A stretch of 64,000 bases of DNA from Methanoregula sp. PtaU1.Bin051 (GTDB lineage: Archaea > Halobacteriota > Methanomicrobia > Methanomicrobiales > Methanospirillaceae): positions 62,001 through 126,000 of the forward strand of contig MVRE01000017.1 in the NCBI GenBank assembly GCA_002067895.1, in the 5' to 3' direction. Made by a program: the position numbers and the translations under genes. Under the pieces are notes generated by a model. That model was not told the DNA's origin, made no database searches, and saw nothing but the letters and a program-made list of their open reading frames with translations. Position 1 is the first letter of the stretch, and each line of letters starts with the position of its first letter. Positions 10,611 to 17,450 of the stretch are shown here, in pieces.

Positions 10611-11450
10611 TCAGGAACGGCTACCCTCGCGGTACAGCGCTGCCAGTTCATCCGGACGCAGCGCCCGGTCGTAGATCCTGAACTCGTCGACCTGCCCGGC
10701 ATAGTTCTGCCCGAACGGCCGCCATGACCCGATGGTCATGACCTCCTCGCCCCCCCCGACCGGCATACCGGACGCGGCGTAAACGTTGACAGGGGCCCCG
10801 TTGAGGTACTCGGTGACGTGCGTCCCGTTGTACACGAGGGCCTTATGGTTCCAGCCGGCAGACGGGAGATCGTCCGCGGGCGGGGATGCGGCCTGCGTGC
10901 GGATCGCGTTGCCATCGTCGTCCCAGAGCTCCGAGACCCGGGTGCCAAGCGTCCAGCCGGTCCGGGGTTCGGTGCCCGCTACCGCTCCCGCAATCTCGTA
11001 GTTGTTACCGGCAATCGAACCGCCCGTGAACCAGAGCGAGAACGTAATATTCGTACGCCCCGCCGCCGGGTTCACGGGGCACCAGAGCAGGCCGGTGCCG
11101 GGCAGGAAGACCGAATGGCCTCCGGCGATCCCCGGACCGCTCCTTACAAAGACGCCCTTGACATAGGCATTGTTGCCGTTGCCGGAGGCATCAGGGATCC
11201 AGAGGGTCTGCCCGATCTCTTCCTCGAAATCATACCATACCAGGAGGCCCCCCGGCTCTCTCGGCACAAACGACGTGAGGTGGCTGTCCGGCCGGGTCAG
11301 GCCAGGGAACTGCCCGGAGACCACCTTGTACGCGCCGGCGGGCAGCGTGGGGACGTTGACCGCAAACGGCAGGAGGACACAGAGGATGATCACTACCATA
11401 ACAGTCCAGCCGGTCACGATAGCTGAGAATGTCTCGTCATCGATCTTCAT
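10611..11450 (-). CDS. Membrane-anchored LamG/concanavalin-like domain protein
   Basis: 279 residues. One hydrophobic helix near residues 11-31 (GWTVMVVIILCVLLPF) anchors the protein, with the remainder predicted outside. From about residue 70 a LamG/laminin-G-like fold is recognisable: YDFEE at the start, DASGNGNNA, ITFSLWF, a YLNGAPV turn, and the end motif GQVDEFRIYDRALRPDELAALY, which is diagnostic of Laminin_G_3 domains. These domains bind carbohydrates or proteins. Its ATG overlaps the stop of the kinase gene as ATGA, implying translational coupling and a shared function. The N-terminus resembles archaeal pilin-like helices but no peptidase cleavage site is convincing. Confidence 0.8.
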   Translation of the reverse strand: MKIDDETFSAIVTGWTVMVVIILCVLLPFAVNVPTLPAGAYKVVSGQFPGLTRPDSHLTSFVPREPGGLLVWYDFEEEIGQTLWIPDASGNGNNAYVKGVFVRSGPGIAGGHSVFLPGTGLLWCPVNPAAGRTNITFSLWFTGGSIAGNNYEIAGAVAGTEPRTGWTLGTRVSELWDDDGNAIRTQAASPPADDLPSAGWNHKALVYNGTHVTEYLNGAPVNVYAASGMPVGGGEEVMTIGSWRPFGQNYAGQVDEFRIYDRALRPDELAALYREGSRS

Positions 11451-13000
11451 GCCCCCGCCTCCCCGATCTCCCGGGCAATGTCCCGGGCACGCGCAAGGAT
11501 CTCCGCCGCGTCACCCTCACCGGCAATCGCGTCCCCGATCCTGCGCATCAGCTCGTGCACAGCCCCCCGCCGCCGCCAGCCGGCATAGTTCACCAGCTCC
11601 GAGGCGTACCGGTACCCGGACGTGAAGTCCTCCTGATAAAGGCTTAACAGGAGCAGCGAGCTGCAGCTCCGGGCGGCACCGGCCGTGTCCCTGCCTGCGA
11701 TCGCGGCGGCCAGCCGTGCGGTATGCTCCCGCTGCAGGTACTCAGCGATTGCGGCCCTGAACGCTGCTGCATCAGAAAAACGGCCGTCAGGGTTCTTTGC
11801 AAGGCACTGCAGTATGATCCCATCGAGGCCTTTTGCGGGCGGGGCAAGGGACGACGGCGGCACCGGTTCCCGGCCTATGATGCCTGACAGTATCTCATTG
11901 ATATTCTCCCCGGCAAACGGCAGTTGTGCTGTCACGAGCTCGTAGAAGATCGCCCCTGCCTGCCATATGTCCGTCCGTCCGTCTTTTACCGTGCGGAGGA
12001 CCTGTTCCGGCGCGGCGTACTGCGGAGTAAACGCGGCCTGCGGCGAGGCGACCGGGGACTCCAAGACGACACGGGAGAGCCCCCAGTCGCTGATCTTCGG
12101 GACACCGTTGCAGAGGAGGATATTGGATGGCTTGAGGTCCTGGTGGATCACCTTCCTGCCATGGGAGTATACAAGGCCGGAAGCCACCCCGTGCATCAGC
12201 CATGCAGCCACCGCGGGGTCGAGAGGTTTCTTCAGCGCCGCAAGCGAGCTGTCGCAGAGCTCCATCTCGATGAACGGGACGGGGAGGATGTTGAAGTCGA
12301 TCACCTTCACGATGTTCTCACACTCCATCTCCGTCCAGTTGGTAAGCTCGGAAATGAACATCTTCCCGACCGCCTCGTCGTGAAGCAGCGGAAGCTTGAC
12401 CGCGACCTTCGTCCCGTCCGCCTTTGTCGCAGAGAAGACGCGGGCAAAACCGCCCCACCCGATGAGCTGGCGGTCCCTGTACCGCTCAGCCATCGCCGGG
12501 GGAATCGCGACCGCCTCCGGCACGTCCTTTAACGAGACAAGGCCCGGGATCTCGTCCTCGTCCGCTTCGCTGATAACCTGCCCCGCCGTCCCCTTCCTGC
12601 CCGTGCGGGGCGGGAGGTAGTACAGCTTGAGGTAGTAGAGCGCGAGCGGGATCACCGTATACACACCGGTGATGCTCAGCGCGATCTTGAGCCACCAGAC
12701 ATACTGGTTCATCCGTGTGGGCCTGTCCCCCCACTCGTAGAGAATGACGAACGTCAGCGCACTGTTCAACAGGAACGTAACTAGGGTTATGAGGTAGAAC
12801 GCGGTCTCGGCCGCATTGGCGGGGCTTGCAAGGGTACTGAGGCAGAGGGCCTCAAGCATAAAGAGATAGGTGAGGTCGAAGATGAGCACCGGGGTGAACG
12901 ACCGACGGATCGCAAGGAAGACCCAGACGCCGCAGACAACGATCGCGATGATAAGGACAGCCCATGTAATGGTGAATACCGAGAGGGTGAGGACGGCCAT
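11447..13000 (-). CDS. Membrane-tethered Hanks-type Ser/Thr protein kinase
   Basis: 517 residues. Three or four hydrophobic helices fill residues 1-130, followed by a linker and a bacterial-type eukaryotic-like kinase domain from about 170 to 430. Visible motifs: glycine loop GWGGFARVF, VAVK lysine near residue 200, HQDLKPSN catalytic loop near 285 (HQD instead of HRD), DWG instead of DFG near 303, and AAPEQ activation-segment end. All catalytic residues (Lys, Asp, Asn, Asp) are present, so it is probably active. A C-terminal helical tail follows. The next gene (LamG) overlaps by four bases; the Clp-N-domain gene is divergent. The catalytic domain should face the cytosol. Confidence 0.9.
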   Translation of the reverse strand: MAVLTLSVFTITWAVLIIAIVVCGVWVFLAIRRSFTPVLIFDLTYLFMLEALCLSTLASPANAAETAFYLITLVTFLLNSALTFVILYEWGDRPTRMNQYVWWLKIALSITGVYTVIPLALYYLKLYYLPPRTGRKGTAGQVISEADEDEIPGLVSLKDVPEAVAIPPAMAERYRDRQLIGWGGFARVFSATKADGTKVAVKLPLLHDEAVGKMFISELTNWTEMECENIVKVIDFNILPVPFIEMELCDSSLAALKKPLDPAVAAWLMHGVASGLVYSHGRKVIHQDLKPSNILLCNGVPKISDWGLSRVVLESPVASPQAAFTPQYAAPEQVLRTVKDGRTDIWQAGAIFYELVTAQLPFAGENINEILSGIIGREPVPPSSLAPPAKGLDGIILQCLAKNPDGRFSDAAAFRAAIAEYLQREHTARLAAAIAGRDTAGAARSCSSLLLLSLYQEDFTSGYRYASELVNYAGWRRRGAVHELMRRIGDAIAGEGDAAEILARARDIAREIGEAGA

Positions 13001-13158
13001 TACTGATCGTCTCTGCCGGGCGGGGTAATAAATACCGGGGTCTGCCGGCGTTCCGGCAGTACCGTTTCCCCTGCTGCTAAATGGGGGCCCTGCATCTTCC
13101 GGCCCGTCCCATAATAATATCTCCCGACTCCGGGAATATATATTAAGGGGGCTTTTGA

Positions 13159-14064
13159 TTGAAGTATCCGGAAGATTATGAAAAATATCTGATGCCTGCA
13201 GCGTTTCTTGCGCTGAAGATTGCCGAAGTCGAGGCCCGGAACGCCGGTTCGGAATACATCGAGCCGGAACACATCTTCATCGGTTTACTGAGCCCCGAAA
13301 AGGTACTGGGAAAAAAAAGCCCGTCCGCAAATGACCGGAAGATGGAGAGGGTTGCGGAGGAATGGGAGGCCATCGTAACCCTGCTTGGAATCGCCGGCCA
13401 CAACGCAACAGTGCTCCGCAGGCTTACGCGGGCCGCCCATCCCCGTGGCAAATCTGACAGGGATCGCAGGAGAGTCCCCTTAAGCCAGGCTGGCATAGAA
13501 TGCATCCTGCGGGCCATCCACGCCGCGGGCGGAAGGACTGTGACTGCTGCCGGCCTCTTCTCGGCAGTCATGGTGCAGCCTGGAACCATCATCCACGACG
13601 TGCTCGCCGAGGCACGGAAGTGCATCGCCGCCGACCGAAGGACCGACGTCCTGCTCCCGTCCGTAACGAGCCTGATTGCGGGCGGCAGGCCAATGCCCTC
13701 CCTGAACAGTGATGACATCCGGAATCTTTTCGACGAGATTGGGAGATACCGCAACACGCATAAACAGTGGATGCAAGGGAGCGACGAGTATTCCGCCATC
13801 CGGCTGGCGATCAACCGGAACGTTGCAGCCCTTGCCGTCTCATTCCTGGAGAAGGAGGACTCTGAAGGGCTTATTTCCGCACTCATGCTGGCGGTCCCCA
13901 GTTCCACGGAGGAAGAACTATCATGTGCGGAGATCATCACAGCGATCGGGGAACTCCGGAACGAGGGGAAAACTCTTCCGGACGACCTGAAATCTCGCAT
14001 CAACGAACTGCTGAAGAAGCTGCTGAAGGATGACCGGGGCCGTAAGAAGGAGAGAGAGAAATGA
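13159..14064 (+). CDS. Clp N-terminal-domain-like protein without an ATPase
   Basis: Up to 301 residues. Residues 12-45 (AFLALKIAEVEARNAG, then YIEPEHIFIGLLS) match the Clp_N repeat pattern, in which an EHxLxxLL core follows an amphipathic helix; a second, weaker repeat is suggested around residues 105-150 (GIECILRAIHAAGGRTVTAAGLFSAVM). No Walker motifs occur, so it is not a Clp ATPase. The C-terminal half is charged and helical. Start is uncertain: TTG at 13159 has AAGGGGGC seven bases upstream, whereas a TATA-like ATATATATT at about 13135 sits too close and would better suit the in-frame ATG at 13192. Clp_N domains act as adaptor or sensor modules. It is divergent from the kinase operon. 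Confidence 0.65.
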   Translation: MKYPEDYEKYLMPAAFLALKIAEVEARNAGSEYIEPEHIFIGLLSPEKVLGKKSPSANDRKMERVAEEWEAIVTLLGIAGHNATVLRRLTRAAHPRGKSDRDRRRVPLSQAGIECILRAIHAAGGRTVTAAGLFSAVMVQPGTIIHDVLAEARKCIAADRRTDVLLPSVTSLIAGGRPMPSLNSDDIRNLFDEIGRYRNTHKQWMQGSDEYSAIRLAINRNVAALAVSFLEKEDSEGLISALMLAVPSSTEEELSCAEIITAIGELRNEGKTLPDDLKSRINELLKKLLKDDRGRKKEREK

Positions 14065-14112: not shown

Positions 14113-14601
14113 ATGGGAAAACTGTTCGTAACCGCCGACTGCCATTTTGGTAACAAAGAGGTGATCCGCATATTTTCCCGCCCGTTTGCAATCGTTGAGC
14201 AGATGGACCGCACCATTGCAGCGAAATGGAACCGCGTGGTCGGGCCGGACGACACCGTGATAGTGATCGGCGACTTCTGCACCGAGCCGGAGGACCGAAA
14301 ACGGCTGCTTAAGGAACTTTCCTGAAACAAGATCCTAATCCGGGGAAACCATGACCGGGGCGGGCCGGAGGCCGGGACCGACCATCTCGTCCTCTCGTAC
14401 CGCGGGCAGGTGGCGTTCCTTATCCACAACCCGGTCCATGTCCCCGCAGGCTGGGACGGCTGGGTGATTCACGGCCACCGCCACGCGGGGGCGCAGGCCC
14501 AACCGTTCATCAACCATGGCCGCAGGACCGCCAATGTCGCCGTTGATTGTACAGGGTACATACCGGTCGGGATCGACCTGATCTTAACGGCGGGTGCCTG
14601 A
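14113..14601 (+). pseudogene. Calcineurin-like metallophosphoesterase, interrupted by one TGA
   Basis: Reading through a single TGA at 14323-14325 gives about 162 residues of a small metallophosphoesterase. Metal-ligand motifs are all present: DCHFGN (D-x-H), GDFC (GD), then after the stop RGNHD (GNHD) and IHGHRHAG (GHxH). The family normally has Gly-containing sequence just before KILIRGNHD, so GGA to TGA is a simple explanation. The ATG at 14113 has a GGGAG-like ribosome site. Related single-domain enzymes hydrolyse phosphodiesters. As sequenced, the first piece lacks GNHD and cannot be active. Confidence 0.8.
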
Positions 14602-14691
14602 CGAAAGGTGCCGGAATAGTACTGGCCACCGCAGCCCGGCCACCGGAGGGACAAAAGTTATATCGTTCCGATCCGCAAGGGATCTCTTCGT

Positions 14692-14946: not shown

Positions 14947-15624
14947 ATGGCACGAGCGTGCGACAAGTGCGGCGCCCCGGCTGCCGACAACCAGTCACAG
15001 TTCTGCAACCGCTGCGGCGGGCCTGTAAAAGACCTGCCGGACTCGGCGCTTCCCGTCTGCAAAAAATGCGGTTTTCCCGCGCTCGATACAAAGTCCGAGT
15101 TCTGCACCCGGTGCGGTTCGAGATTTACCGGGGAGCCGCAAACAAAGTTACCCGTCTGCAGGAACTGCGGGCACGAGATCCCGGACCCGGAGGCCGGCTT
15201 CTGCAACCGGTGCGGGACACCCTCCCGCGGGCCCGGCGCGGGTGTAAAACCGGCGCAGGCCCCCGAGCCGGTCGTGCTCGCAAAGAGGAGACACGCGGTC
15301 ACACCGGAGACCGCGGCCGACTGGAGCCCCTTTTCCGAGGATGACGAGGGAACGGGCGCCGTCCAGGCGCTCCTTGACAGGAAGAAGAGGGGCCGGCTCC
15401 CGATCGGCCCCGGGGCGGCCGGGGACCTCAACGGCAGCCCACCTGAACATGGCTATCCCTTGGAAAAGAAATACGCCCACCTCCCGCTCGTCTCTGACGA
15501 GATGAGGGCGTTGAAACCGGACGCGGAGTCCCTACTGCCCGATGACGGGAGCAGGGGGGCGAAGAAGACGGACAGTGCCGGGAAAAAAGGGCTCATGAAC
15601 TTTTTTAAGAAGAAGCAGGGCTGA
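14947..15624 (+). CDS. Triple zinc-ribbon protein with disordered tail
   Basis: 225 residues. Three consecutive zinc ribbons, each with two CxxC knuckles about 12-15 residues apart, occupy residues 1-95: CDKCG...FCNRCG, CKKCG...FCTRCG and CRNCG...FCNRCG. The rest (about 96-225) is proline/glycine- and charge-rich, with no predicted fold, ending in a lysine-rich amphipathic stretch (MNFFKKKQG). There are no membrane helices. Double-zinc-ribbon proteins of this kind are common in archaea and mostly uncharacterised; protein-protein or nucleic-acid binding is the usual guess. Confidence 0.8.
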   Translation: MARACDKCGAPAADNQSQFCNRCGGPVKDLPDSALPVCKKCGFPALDTKSEFCTRCGSRFTGEPQTKLPVCRNCGHEIPDPEAGFCNRCGTPSRGPGAGVKPAQAPEPVVLAKRRHAVTPETAADWSPFSEDDEGTGAVQALLDRKKRGRLPIGPGAAGDLNGSPPEHGYPLEKKYAHLPLVSDEMRALKPDAESLLPDDGSRGAKKTDSAGKKGLMNFFKKKQG

Positions 15625-15720: not shown

Positions 15721-17450
15721 TTACGATCCGATAATCGTGTAGAGGCCGGCAAGAGGCAGCGTGTTGATCACGTCGCCAGCAGCAAGCCAGCCCCGGCGGG
15801 CTGTCGCGATCCCGAGGTCCATGGTGCGGAGACCTTCCGTTTTATGGGCGTCCGTGCCGATCGCGAACTTAACACCGTGCTTTTGGGCGGCCATGCAGGC
15901 AGTATCCGGAAGGTCCAGCCGTGCAGGGTGGGCATTGATCTCCAGACTGACGCGGAGACCGGCTGCGGCCTTTGCAACGGCGGCAACGTCGAACCGTGAC
16001 GGTTCGCGCTGCAGGAGGATCCTGTTGGCCGGGTGGGCGAGGATGTCGAGGTTGTCATTGTGCATAGCGGCGATCAGGCGATCGGTCATGCGCTGCTCCT
16101 CCATATCCGGCGCAGAGTACACGGCAGCGAATACTATATCAAGGTCGGCAAGCAATGCGGCGCTGACATCAAGCACCCCATCCTTTTCGATGCTGCACTC
16201 GATCCCGGCAAGTACGGTTATGCCTTCAAGCACCCGGTTCACCTTTTCGATCTCCGCCCGCTGTTCTGCTATCTTTTCCCCATCAAGCCCACGCGGGAAC
16301 TTATCGCCCTTCGCATGGTCGCAGACAGCGATGTACTCGTAACCGAGGGCTTGCGCAGCTTCGGCCATCTCACGGATGGAATGGGCCCCGTCACCCCATG
16401 CCGTGTGGATGTGGATGTCCCCTTTTACCGCATTGTACGGGAGGATTTCCGGAAGTATCCCGGCCTCCGCCGCTTCGACCTCGCCGCGGTTTTCCCGGAG
16501 CTCTGGCGCGATATAAGCAAGGCCGAGCGCACCGTACATCCCTTCCTCGTCACTGCCGGCAATTACCATGTCGTTACTGCGATCAAAAAGGCCGTACTCG
16601 TTCAGCTTTTAGCCCAGCCCTATCGCCCGCCTCCGGAGCGCTATGTTGTGCTCCTTGGAGCCGGTAAAGTAGAGGAGCGCCGCGCCGTACTGCCCCTCCT
16701 CCACGACCCGCAGGTTGACCTGCAGGCCTGAGCCGAGCACTACCATGCTCCGGGTCGGCCCCCGCTTAGCAACCCGGCCGATCGCAGGCAGCGAGCAGAA
16801 CGCCTCCATCACCTGCTCCGGTGCCGGCGAGATCATGAGGATATCGATATCACCAACCGACTCCTTCCTCCTCCGGATAGACCCGGCAACGCTGATCCGG
16901 CCCGTTGCGGGGTTGCGGGCCAGTGCAGAGACGATCTTCTCCGCAACCGGCAGGATGTCGCCGAGAAGGGGCCGCGCCCCGGGGCGCTGCTGCCCCGGAT
17001 CGTCACTAAGATCCGCCTCTCGTTCTGCTCCCCGAAGCCCGGAAGGTCACGGACCCGCCCGGCTGCGGCCGCCGCTTCCAAGTCCCGGACATTCCTGACA
17101 TTAAACTCCTTAACAAGCACCTTCACCCTCTTCAGCCCGATTCCCTCGATTCCGGAGAGCTCCTGCACGCCCTCCGGCAGCTCCTTTCTCAGCTTTTCGA
17201 GATACGAAAGCCCCCCCGTCCCCACAATCTCGCAGATCTTGGCAGCGATGTGGGTGCCCACTTCGGGGATCTTTTCAAGCTCCCCCGGCCCGCTCACTTC
17301 CGCGATGTCCTCCCGCAGTGCCTCGACGGCCCGCGCCGCCTTCGCGTACGCCTGCGGCTTGAACCGCTCCCCCCTGGCGTTCAGGATCTCGGCGGCCTCG
17401 TACAGGATGGCGGCGACACGGCGGTTGTTCTCTTTTGCAGAGAGGTCCAT
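15721..17450 (-). pseudogene. polX: DNA polymerase X/PHP-domain protein (PolX), with one frameshift and one stop
   Basis: Three collinear pieces reconstruct one PolX of about 575 residues. Piece 1 (from 17450) has the helical lyase-like and helix-hairpin-helix regions (ELSGIEGIGLKRVKVLVKEF). Reading then changes frame near a four-C run at 16993-16996; adding one base there restores RGQQRPGARPLLGDILP. Piece 2 carries the nucleotidyltransferase core GSIRRRKESVGDIDIL. A TAA at 16609-16611 separates it from piece 3 (KLNEYGLF onward), which holds the PHP exonuclease (GDIHIHTAWGDG, CDHAKGD, H-x-H-rich end). Family members fill gaps and process ends in base-excision repair. Either two real lesions or two sequencing errors are needed. 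Confidence 0.82.

Follow-up and report, generated by a model that had tools for sequence, protein, structure and literature searches.

Whether three adjacent genes encoding a Hanks-type Ser/Thr kinase, a LamG (ConA-like) protein and a Clp_N-like protein act together is the question raised by a locus of Methanoregula sp. PtaU1.Bin051, lying within a 64,000-nucleotide stretch of contig MVRE01000017.1 (hereafter the window). A preliminary description had proposed that a membrane-tethered kinase, a surface LamG protein translationally coupled to it and a Clp_N-only protein read from the facing promoter form a signalling module joining outside ligand binding, phosphorylation and a proteolysis-type adaptor. 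Our ORF calls and Pfam matches agree with the three genes as described. The LamG gene (10611..11450, about 279 aa) and the kinase gene (11447..13000, 517 aa) lie on the minus strand and, as read directly from the sequence, the kinase stop and the LamG start overlap by four nucleotides, ATGA (11447-11450), which bears out the coupling of the pair in one operon. The orphan Clp_N-like gene (13159..14064, plus strand, 301 aa, TTG start) diverges from the kinase gene across a gap of 158 bp. All three ORFs are intact and show coding bias, that of the Clp_N-like gene reaching 0.174 per codon versus -0.048 for the shadow ORF on its reverse strand. The divergent intergenic region (13001..13158) contains a TATA-like element, TAATAAATA (13026-13034), about 26-34 nt upstream of the kinase ATG, two AT-rich elements (13111-13120 and 13134-13144) and the string AAGGGGG (13145-13151), seven nt before the TTG of the Clp_N-like gene. 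Such elements would be promoter parts, and the position of the TATA-like element suggests that the kinase mRNA is possibly leaderless. The divergent arrangement of the Clp_N-like gene is thus as described, while its transcription from a promoter of its own is a possibility that these elements suggest.

The identity of the kinase is clear. Residues 174-409 match the Pfam Pkinase model (2.2e-35, 122.8 bits versus a cut-off of 31.7) and, among solved structures, PknB is the most closely related (6e-31). The claim that the catalytic residues are complete holds throughout, the alignment recovering the GxGG loop, the VAVK Lys, the helix-C Glu, HQD, Asn, DWG and APE. HQD and DWG, which had been noted as variants, retain both aspartates; HQD is indeed unusual, being found among the aligned kinases of the order only in the window kinase and in L087_6, but DWG is ordinary, occurring in 37/37 of them. 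Hydropathy predicts four transmembrane (TM) segments (residues 13-31, 38-56, 69-87 and 106-124) joined by short loops only, with no large outside loop, in keeping with a membrane-tethered kinase. Among 232 genomes of the order, no other yielded this membrane part of four helices; candidates for its conservation in four of them (G089, G182, G219 and G094) were rejected, the gene-called proteins matching only from residue 50-110.

The window kinase is the sole Pkinase match above the Pfam cut-off in its genome. A second, sub-threshold match falls in a 525-aa frame that probably encodes the KEOPS kinase. No PASTA match was found in the window kinase, which scores 162.5 bits versus a cut-off of 450 against the NCBIfam model PknB_PASTA_kin (NF033483). 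Models of anti-phage kinases (PD-T4-6, Stk2, MADS6, PglW) match within the kinase domain region only, the best PADLOC match being PD-T4-6 (6e-49); scores for MADS6 (86.7 versus 460 bits) and PglW (28.3 versus 990 bits) stay below the cut-offs. Coverage confined to the kinase domain is as expected for any Hanks kinase. Scanning GTDB with the kinase alignment yielded generic tail-less kinases only (best, Methanothermococcus, 37%) from a collection in which records near the window are possibly absent.

The product of the second gene of the operon carries a Laminin_G_3 domain (Pfam, 8.7e-16, residues 131-269, 58.9 bits versus a cut-off of 27.6) behind a single N-terminal TM segment (residues 11-29, by hydropathy). 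The domain and the membrane anchor of the proposed surface LamG protein were therefore found; its display outside the cell is probable from this topology, the flanking charges not settling the orientation. LamG is present in 2/232 genomes of the order, that of the window and G126, where it ends a 646-aa multi-TM protein encoded on a contig other than that of the kinase and preceded, as judged by eye for its non-LamG domains, by TPR-like N-terminal repeats.

Kinases of the order are of two kinds, common ones ending at the kinase domain and, secondly, a clade extended by about 95 C-terminal residues (loci L045-L061, L086 and L087 here). The window kinase falls inside this tail clade in the kinase-domain tree (support 100/99), at the tip of the longest end branch (1.25). 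Its tail (about residues 425-517; 11450..11728, minus strand) was found at 4e-7 by a tail HMM built without the window sequence and is common to 23 other kinases examined. AlphaFold2 (AF2) predicts a five-helix bundle (pLDDT 92) for which Foldseek gave no significant PDB fold match, and this C-terminal domain is apparently undescribed. The tail occurs in 25/232 genomes, scattered patchily over five families, in kinases whose kinase domains are about 40-49% identical to that of the window kinase. Their N-terminal parts vary: zinc ribbons with CARDB, PQQ or NHL propellers, TPR, HEAT or TIR. Among these, the kinase L087:7426-9345 carries a fused TIR domain at its N-terminus and is followed by a TIR-TPR protein (L087:9901-11715). 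Tail sequences lacking a kinase domain, in frames of 58-103 aa, were also seen (G188:C25:46750-47884, G086:C1:1717118 and 1742929, G095:C189:30053, G187:C177:3960) and represent either remnants or tail modules kept in reserve. At L056:9184-11355, a TPR/HEAT protein lying between two kinases of the clade matches the tail weakly (4.7e-5) and may carry the tail domain without being a kinase.

Many relatives within this clade keep recurrent company. A PP2C gene lies just downstream of the kinase at five loci, confirmed by Pfam for L045 and assigned by BLAST clustering (cluster 3) for L046, L052, L053 and L059. Coiled-coil proteins of about 200 aa, as a pair or singly, stand by tail-clade kinases at nine loci in nine genomes (L049, L050, L051, L053, L055, L056, L057, L059 and L060); they have no Pfam match and may be ESCRT-III-like. 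At L053 they are followed by a Vps4-like AAA protein (AAA 3e-38, Vps4_C 4e-9), a TIR protein and a TrkA_N-RyR protein, and PPK2 genes are present there as well; companion genes at the other loci were assigned by BLAST clustering only. The neighbourhood of tail-clade kinase and coiled-coil pair looks like an undescribed accessory cassette. Prokaryotic ESCRT-like Snf7/Vps4 neighbourhoods resemble the loci of these relatives, where a Vps4-like AAA gene lies by coiled-coil pairs, but not the window locus (PMC11237479). No PP2C or Vps4-like cassette was found at the latter, nor any PP2C_2 phosphatase or Vps4-like match in its genome, and within the clade the window kinase evolves fast and stands alone, devoid of cassette partners.

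The third gene is a separate orphan encoding a divergent Clp_N-like protein. The Pfam Clp_N match (5.4e-5) spans only 24/53 model positions and corresponds to a first repeat at residues 8-47, the second repeat being degenerate. A ClpB-N HMM scored 14.6 bits, whereas none of 1000 shuffles exceeded 6.5, and nearly all phmmer matches in the PDB, including all the best ones, were N-domains of the Clp family (among them the ClpC NTD), at E-values of about 0.003 and up. Its likeness to Clp_N is thus weak but above chance, so that the label Clp_N-only survives in reduced form, for a protein with one recognisable repeat. The C-terminal part is helical (about residues 208-290) and is the only part modelled confidently by AF2; with a mean pLDDT of 48, the model returned nothing usable from Foldseek. 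A homology of these helices to the kinase tail, suspected by eye, was rejected (-0.1 bits, the top-scoring of 2000 shuffles reaching 7.7). Searches with the full-length protein in the order, GTDB, IMG/VR, phages and plasmids yielded no relative.

Searches of the genome, which is 96% complete, detected no ClpB, no ClpP (controls positive in 12 genomes) and no Clp_N domain other than that of the orphan, and its other AAA proteins have generic Cdc48/PAN-like sizes. That a Clp gene was overlooked is possible but unlikely. The role of proteolysis-type adaptor is consequently left without a visible partner and gains no support. A domain like Clp_N does not have to work for a protease, since standalone Clp_N proteins such as mycobacterial ClpC2 are known. 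ClpC2, a cyclomarin-binding protein that represses the gene encoding it, likewise combines a Clp_N-like domain with an unrelated domain and has no AAA modules, but its domain is C-terminal with two clear repeats, whereas that of the window protein is N-terminal with one recognisable repeat, and ClpC2 works beside ClpC1 (PMC10030653). Elsewhere in the order, Clp_N matches fall mostly in full-length frames of ClpB size (about 870 aa). One genome also encodes a ClpA-like, not ClpB-like, protein (G194:C1:3160515-3160664, L067), possibly acquired or a contamination.

Conservation of the trio was surveyed in 232 genomes of the order, that of the window included. Relatives of the kinase domain occur in 162 of them and the Clp_N-like protein in one, the window genome itself; no genome searched other than this one has the kinase-LamG-Clp_N set, and the expectation that the three genes keep together across relatives fails. 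The nearest relative in the genus that shares the flanking ABC-2 transporter pair (ATPase identity 82%) has other genes following the pair. Because two of the three genes are almost without relatives, conservation is silent on whether they act jointly in this one organism. No tRNA or long repeat flags the locus as an insertion. Beyond the Clp_N-like gene, a metallophosphoesterase-like frame (14113-14613, plus strand) is interrupted by an in-frame TGA (14323-14325), reflecting either a broken gene or a sequence error, and a PolX-type gene with HHH, polymerase-beta thumb and PHP domains (15721-17450, minus strand) is split into three ORFs, its thumb domain being divided between two of them. Between these, a protein with three zinc-ribbon repeats (14947-15624, plus strand; 99-nt period in the DNA) resembles the zinc ribbons that start tail-clade kinases.

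From its anatomy, we give about even chances to a reading of the locus as a split receptor-type Ser/Thr kinase, with LamG outside and the kinase inside. The Hanks kinase, embedded by four TM helices, would have no sizeable outside domain of its own, and the single-pass LamG protein made with it would supply the outside ligand- or glycan-binding part. Binding of a ligand by LamG could then be relayed to the kinase via membrane contacts, the kinase would phosphorylate cytoplasmic targets and its five-helix tail may recruit partners or substrates, in a member of an accessory clade that swaps N-terminal sensors. The 4-nt overlap in an operon, the TM layout of both proteins, the intact catalytic residues and the membership of the tail clade argue for this arrangement. 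Some sister kinases of the order have outside segments between two TM segments and others fused sensors, so that detaching the sensor would be a small step. Against it, the pair of kinase and LamG is found in one genome only and hence gains no support from co-conservation, short gene overlaps are common in prokaryotes and do not prove a shared function, and the genome search gave no PP2C_2 phosphatase that could undo the signal.

The main rival, a substantial possibility to which we nonetheless give less than even chances, is that the genes adjoin by chance: an accessory kinase, either acquired recently or in decay, would lie among unrelated neighbours in a variable part of the DNA that is itself decaying, with LamG acting alone at the surface. 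The different genes next to the same ABC-2 pair in the genus relative, the patchiness of the clade, the broken genes nearby and the long branch of the kinase, which could reflect relaxed constraint, all point that way, while three intact ORFs with coding bias and a full set of catalytic residues speak against decay of the kinase. Inclusion of the third gene, with LamG as sensor and the Clp_N protein as a protease adaptor that the kinase controls by phosphorylation, seems to us unlikely. Clp_N-type domains of bacterial ClpC do bind peptides and phospho-residues, the Clp_N-like signal is above chance and the gene is the divergent neighbour of the kinase, but the genes are not conserved as a group, the kinase tail and the Clp_N protein share no domain, and the genome offers neither a Clp partner nor AAA proteins other than generic ones. 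The signalling module is consequently reduced to the pair, which fits a split receptor. We consider it very improbable that the kinase is of a defence or conflict type now deprived of its partners; its relatives, one of them TIR-fused, may be of that type, since they adjoin Vps4-like AAA, TIR, TrkA_N-RyR and PP2C genes, and its best PADLOC match is PD-T4-6, but such matches cover only what any Hanks kinase would and no partner gene lies beside it.

As a split receptor, the window kinase would have the Hanks fold and membrane anchoring in common with PknB/StkP-type receptor kinases, from which it differs by its four N-terminal TM segments, its C-terminal helical tail, the lack of PASTA domains and a sensor apparently placed on a second protein. 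With its clade relatives it shares the kinase domain and the five-helix tail; many of these adjoin PP2C and Vps4-like cassettes and carry a fused zinc-ribbon/CARDB, propeller, TPR or TIR part where the window kinase has four TM segments and a LamG neighbour. In the literature, which was covered incompletely, we found no report of a LamG-kinase pair or of a TIR/Vps4/kinase cassette. To our knowledge, archaeal Hanks kinases are poorly studied outside the Sulfolobales, and few from methanogens have a candidate outside sensor.

Should kinase and LamG truly form a pair, they would make up a receptor kinase divided between two genes. A broader reading, speculative and on the whole rather doubtful, would place the window kinase, solitary and with its sensor split off, in an undescribed accessory phosphosignalling system of the order. 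In this system, kinases bearing a new five-helix tail and sensors that can be exchanged would act together with PP2C phosphatases, Vps4-like AAA, paired coiled-coil and TIR proteins, perhaps in defence or the repair of membranes. More interesting than the trio itself is the wider clade of kinases, which swaps sensors and is linked to Vps4-like and TIR genes; it is there that a new question could arise.
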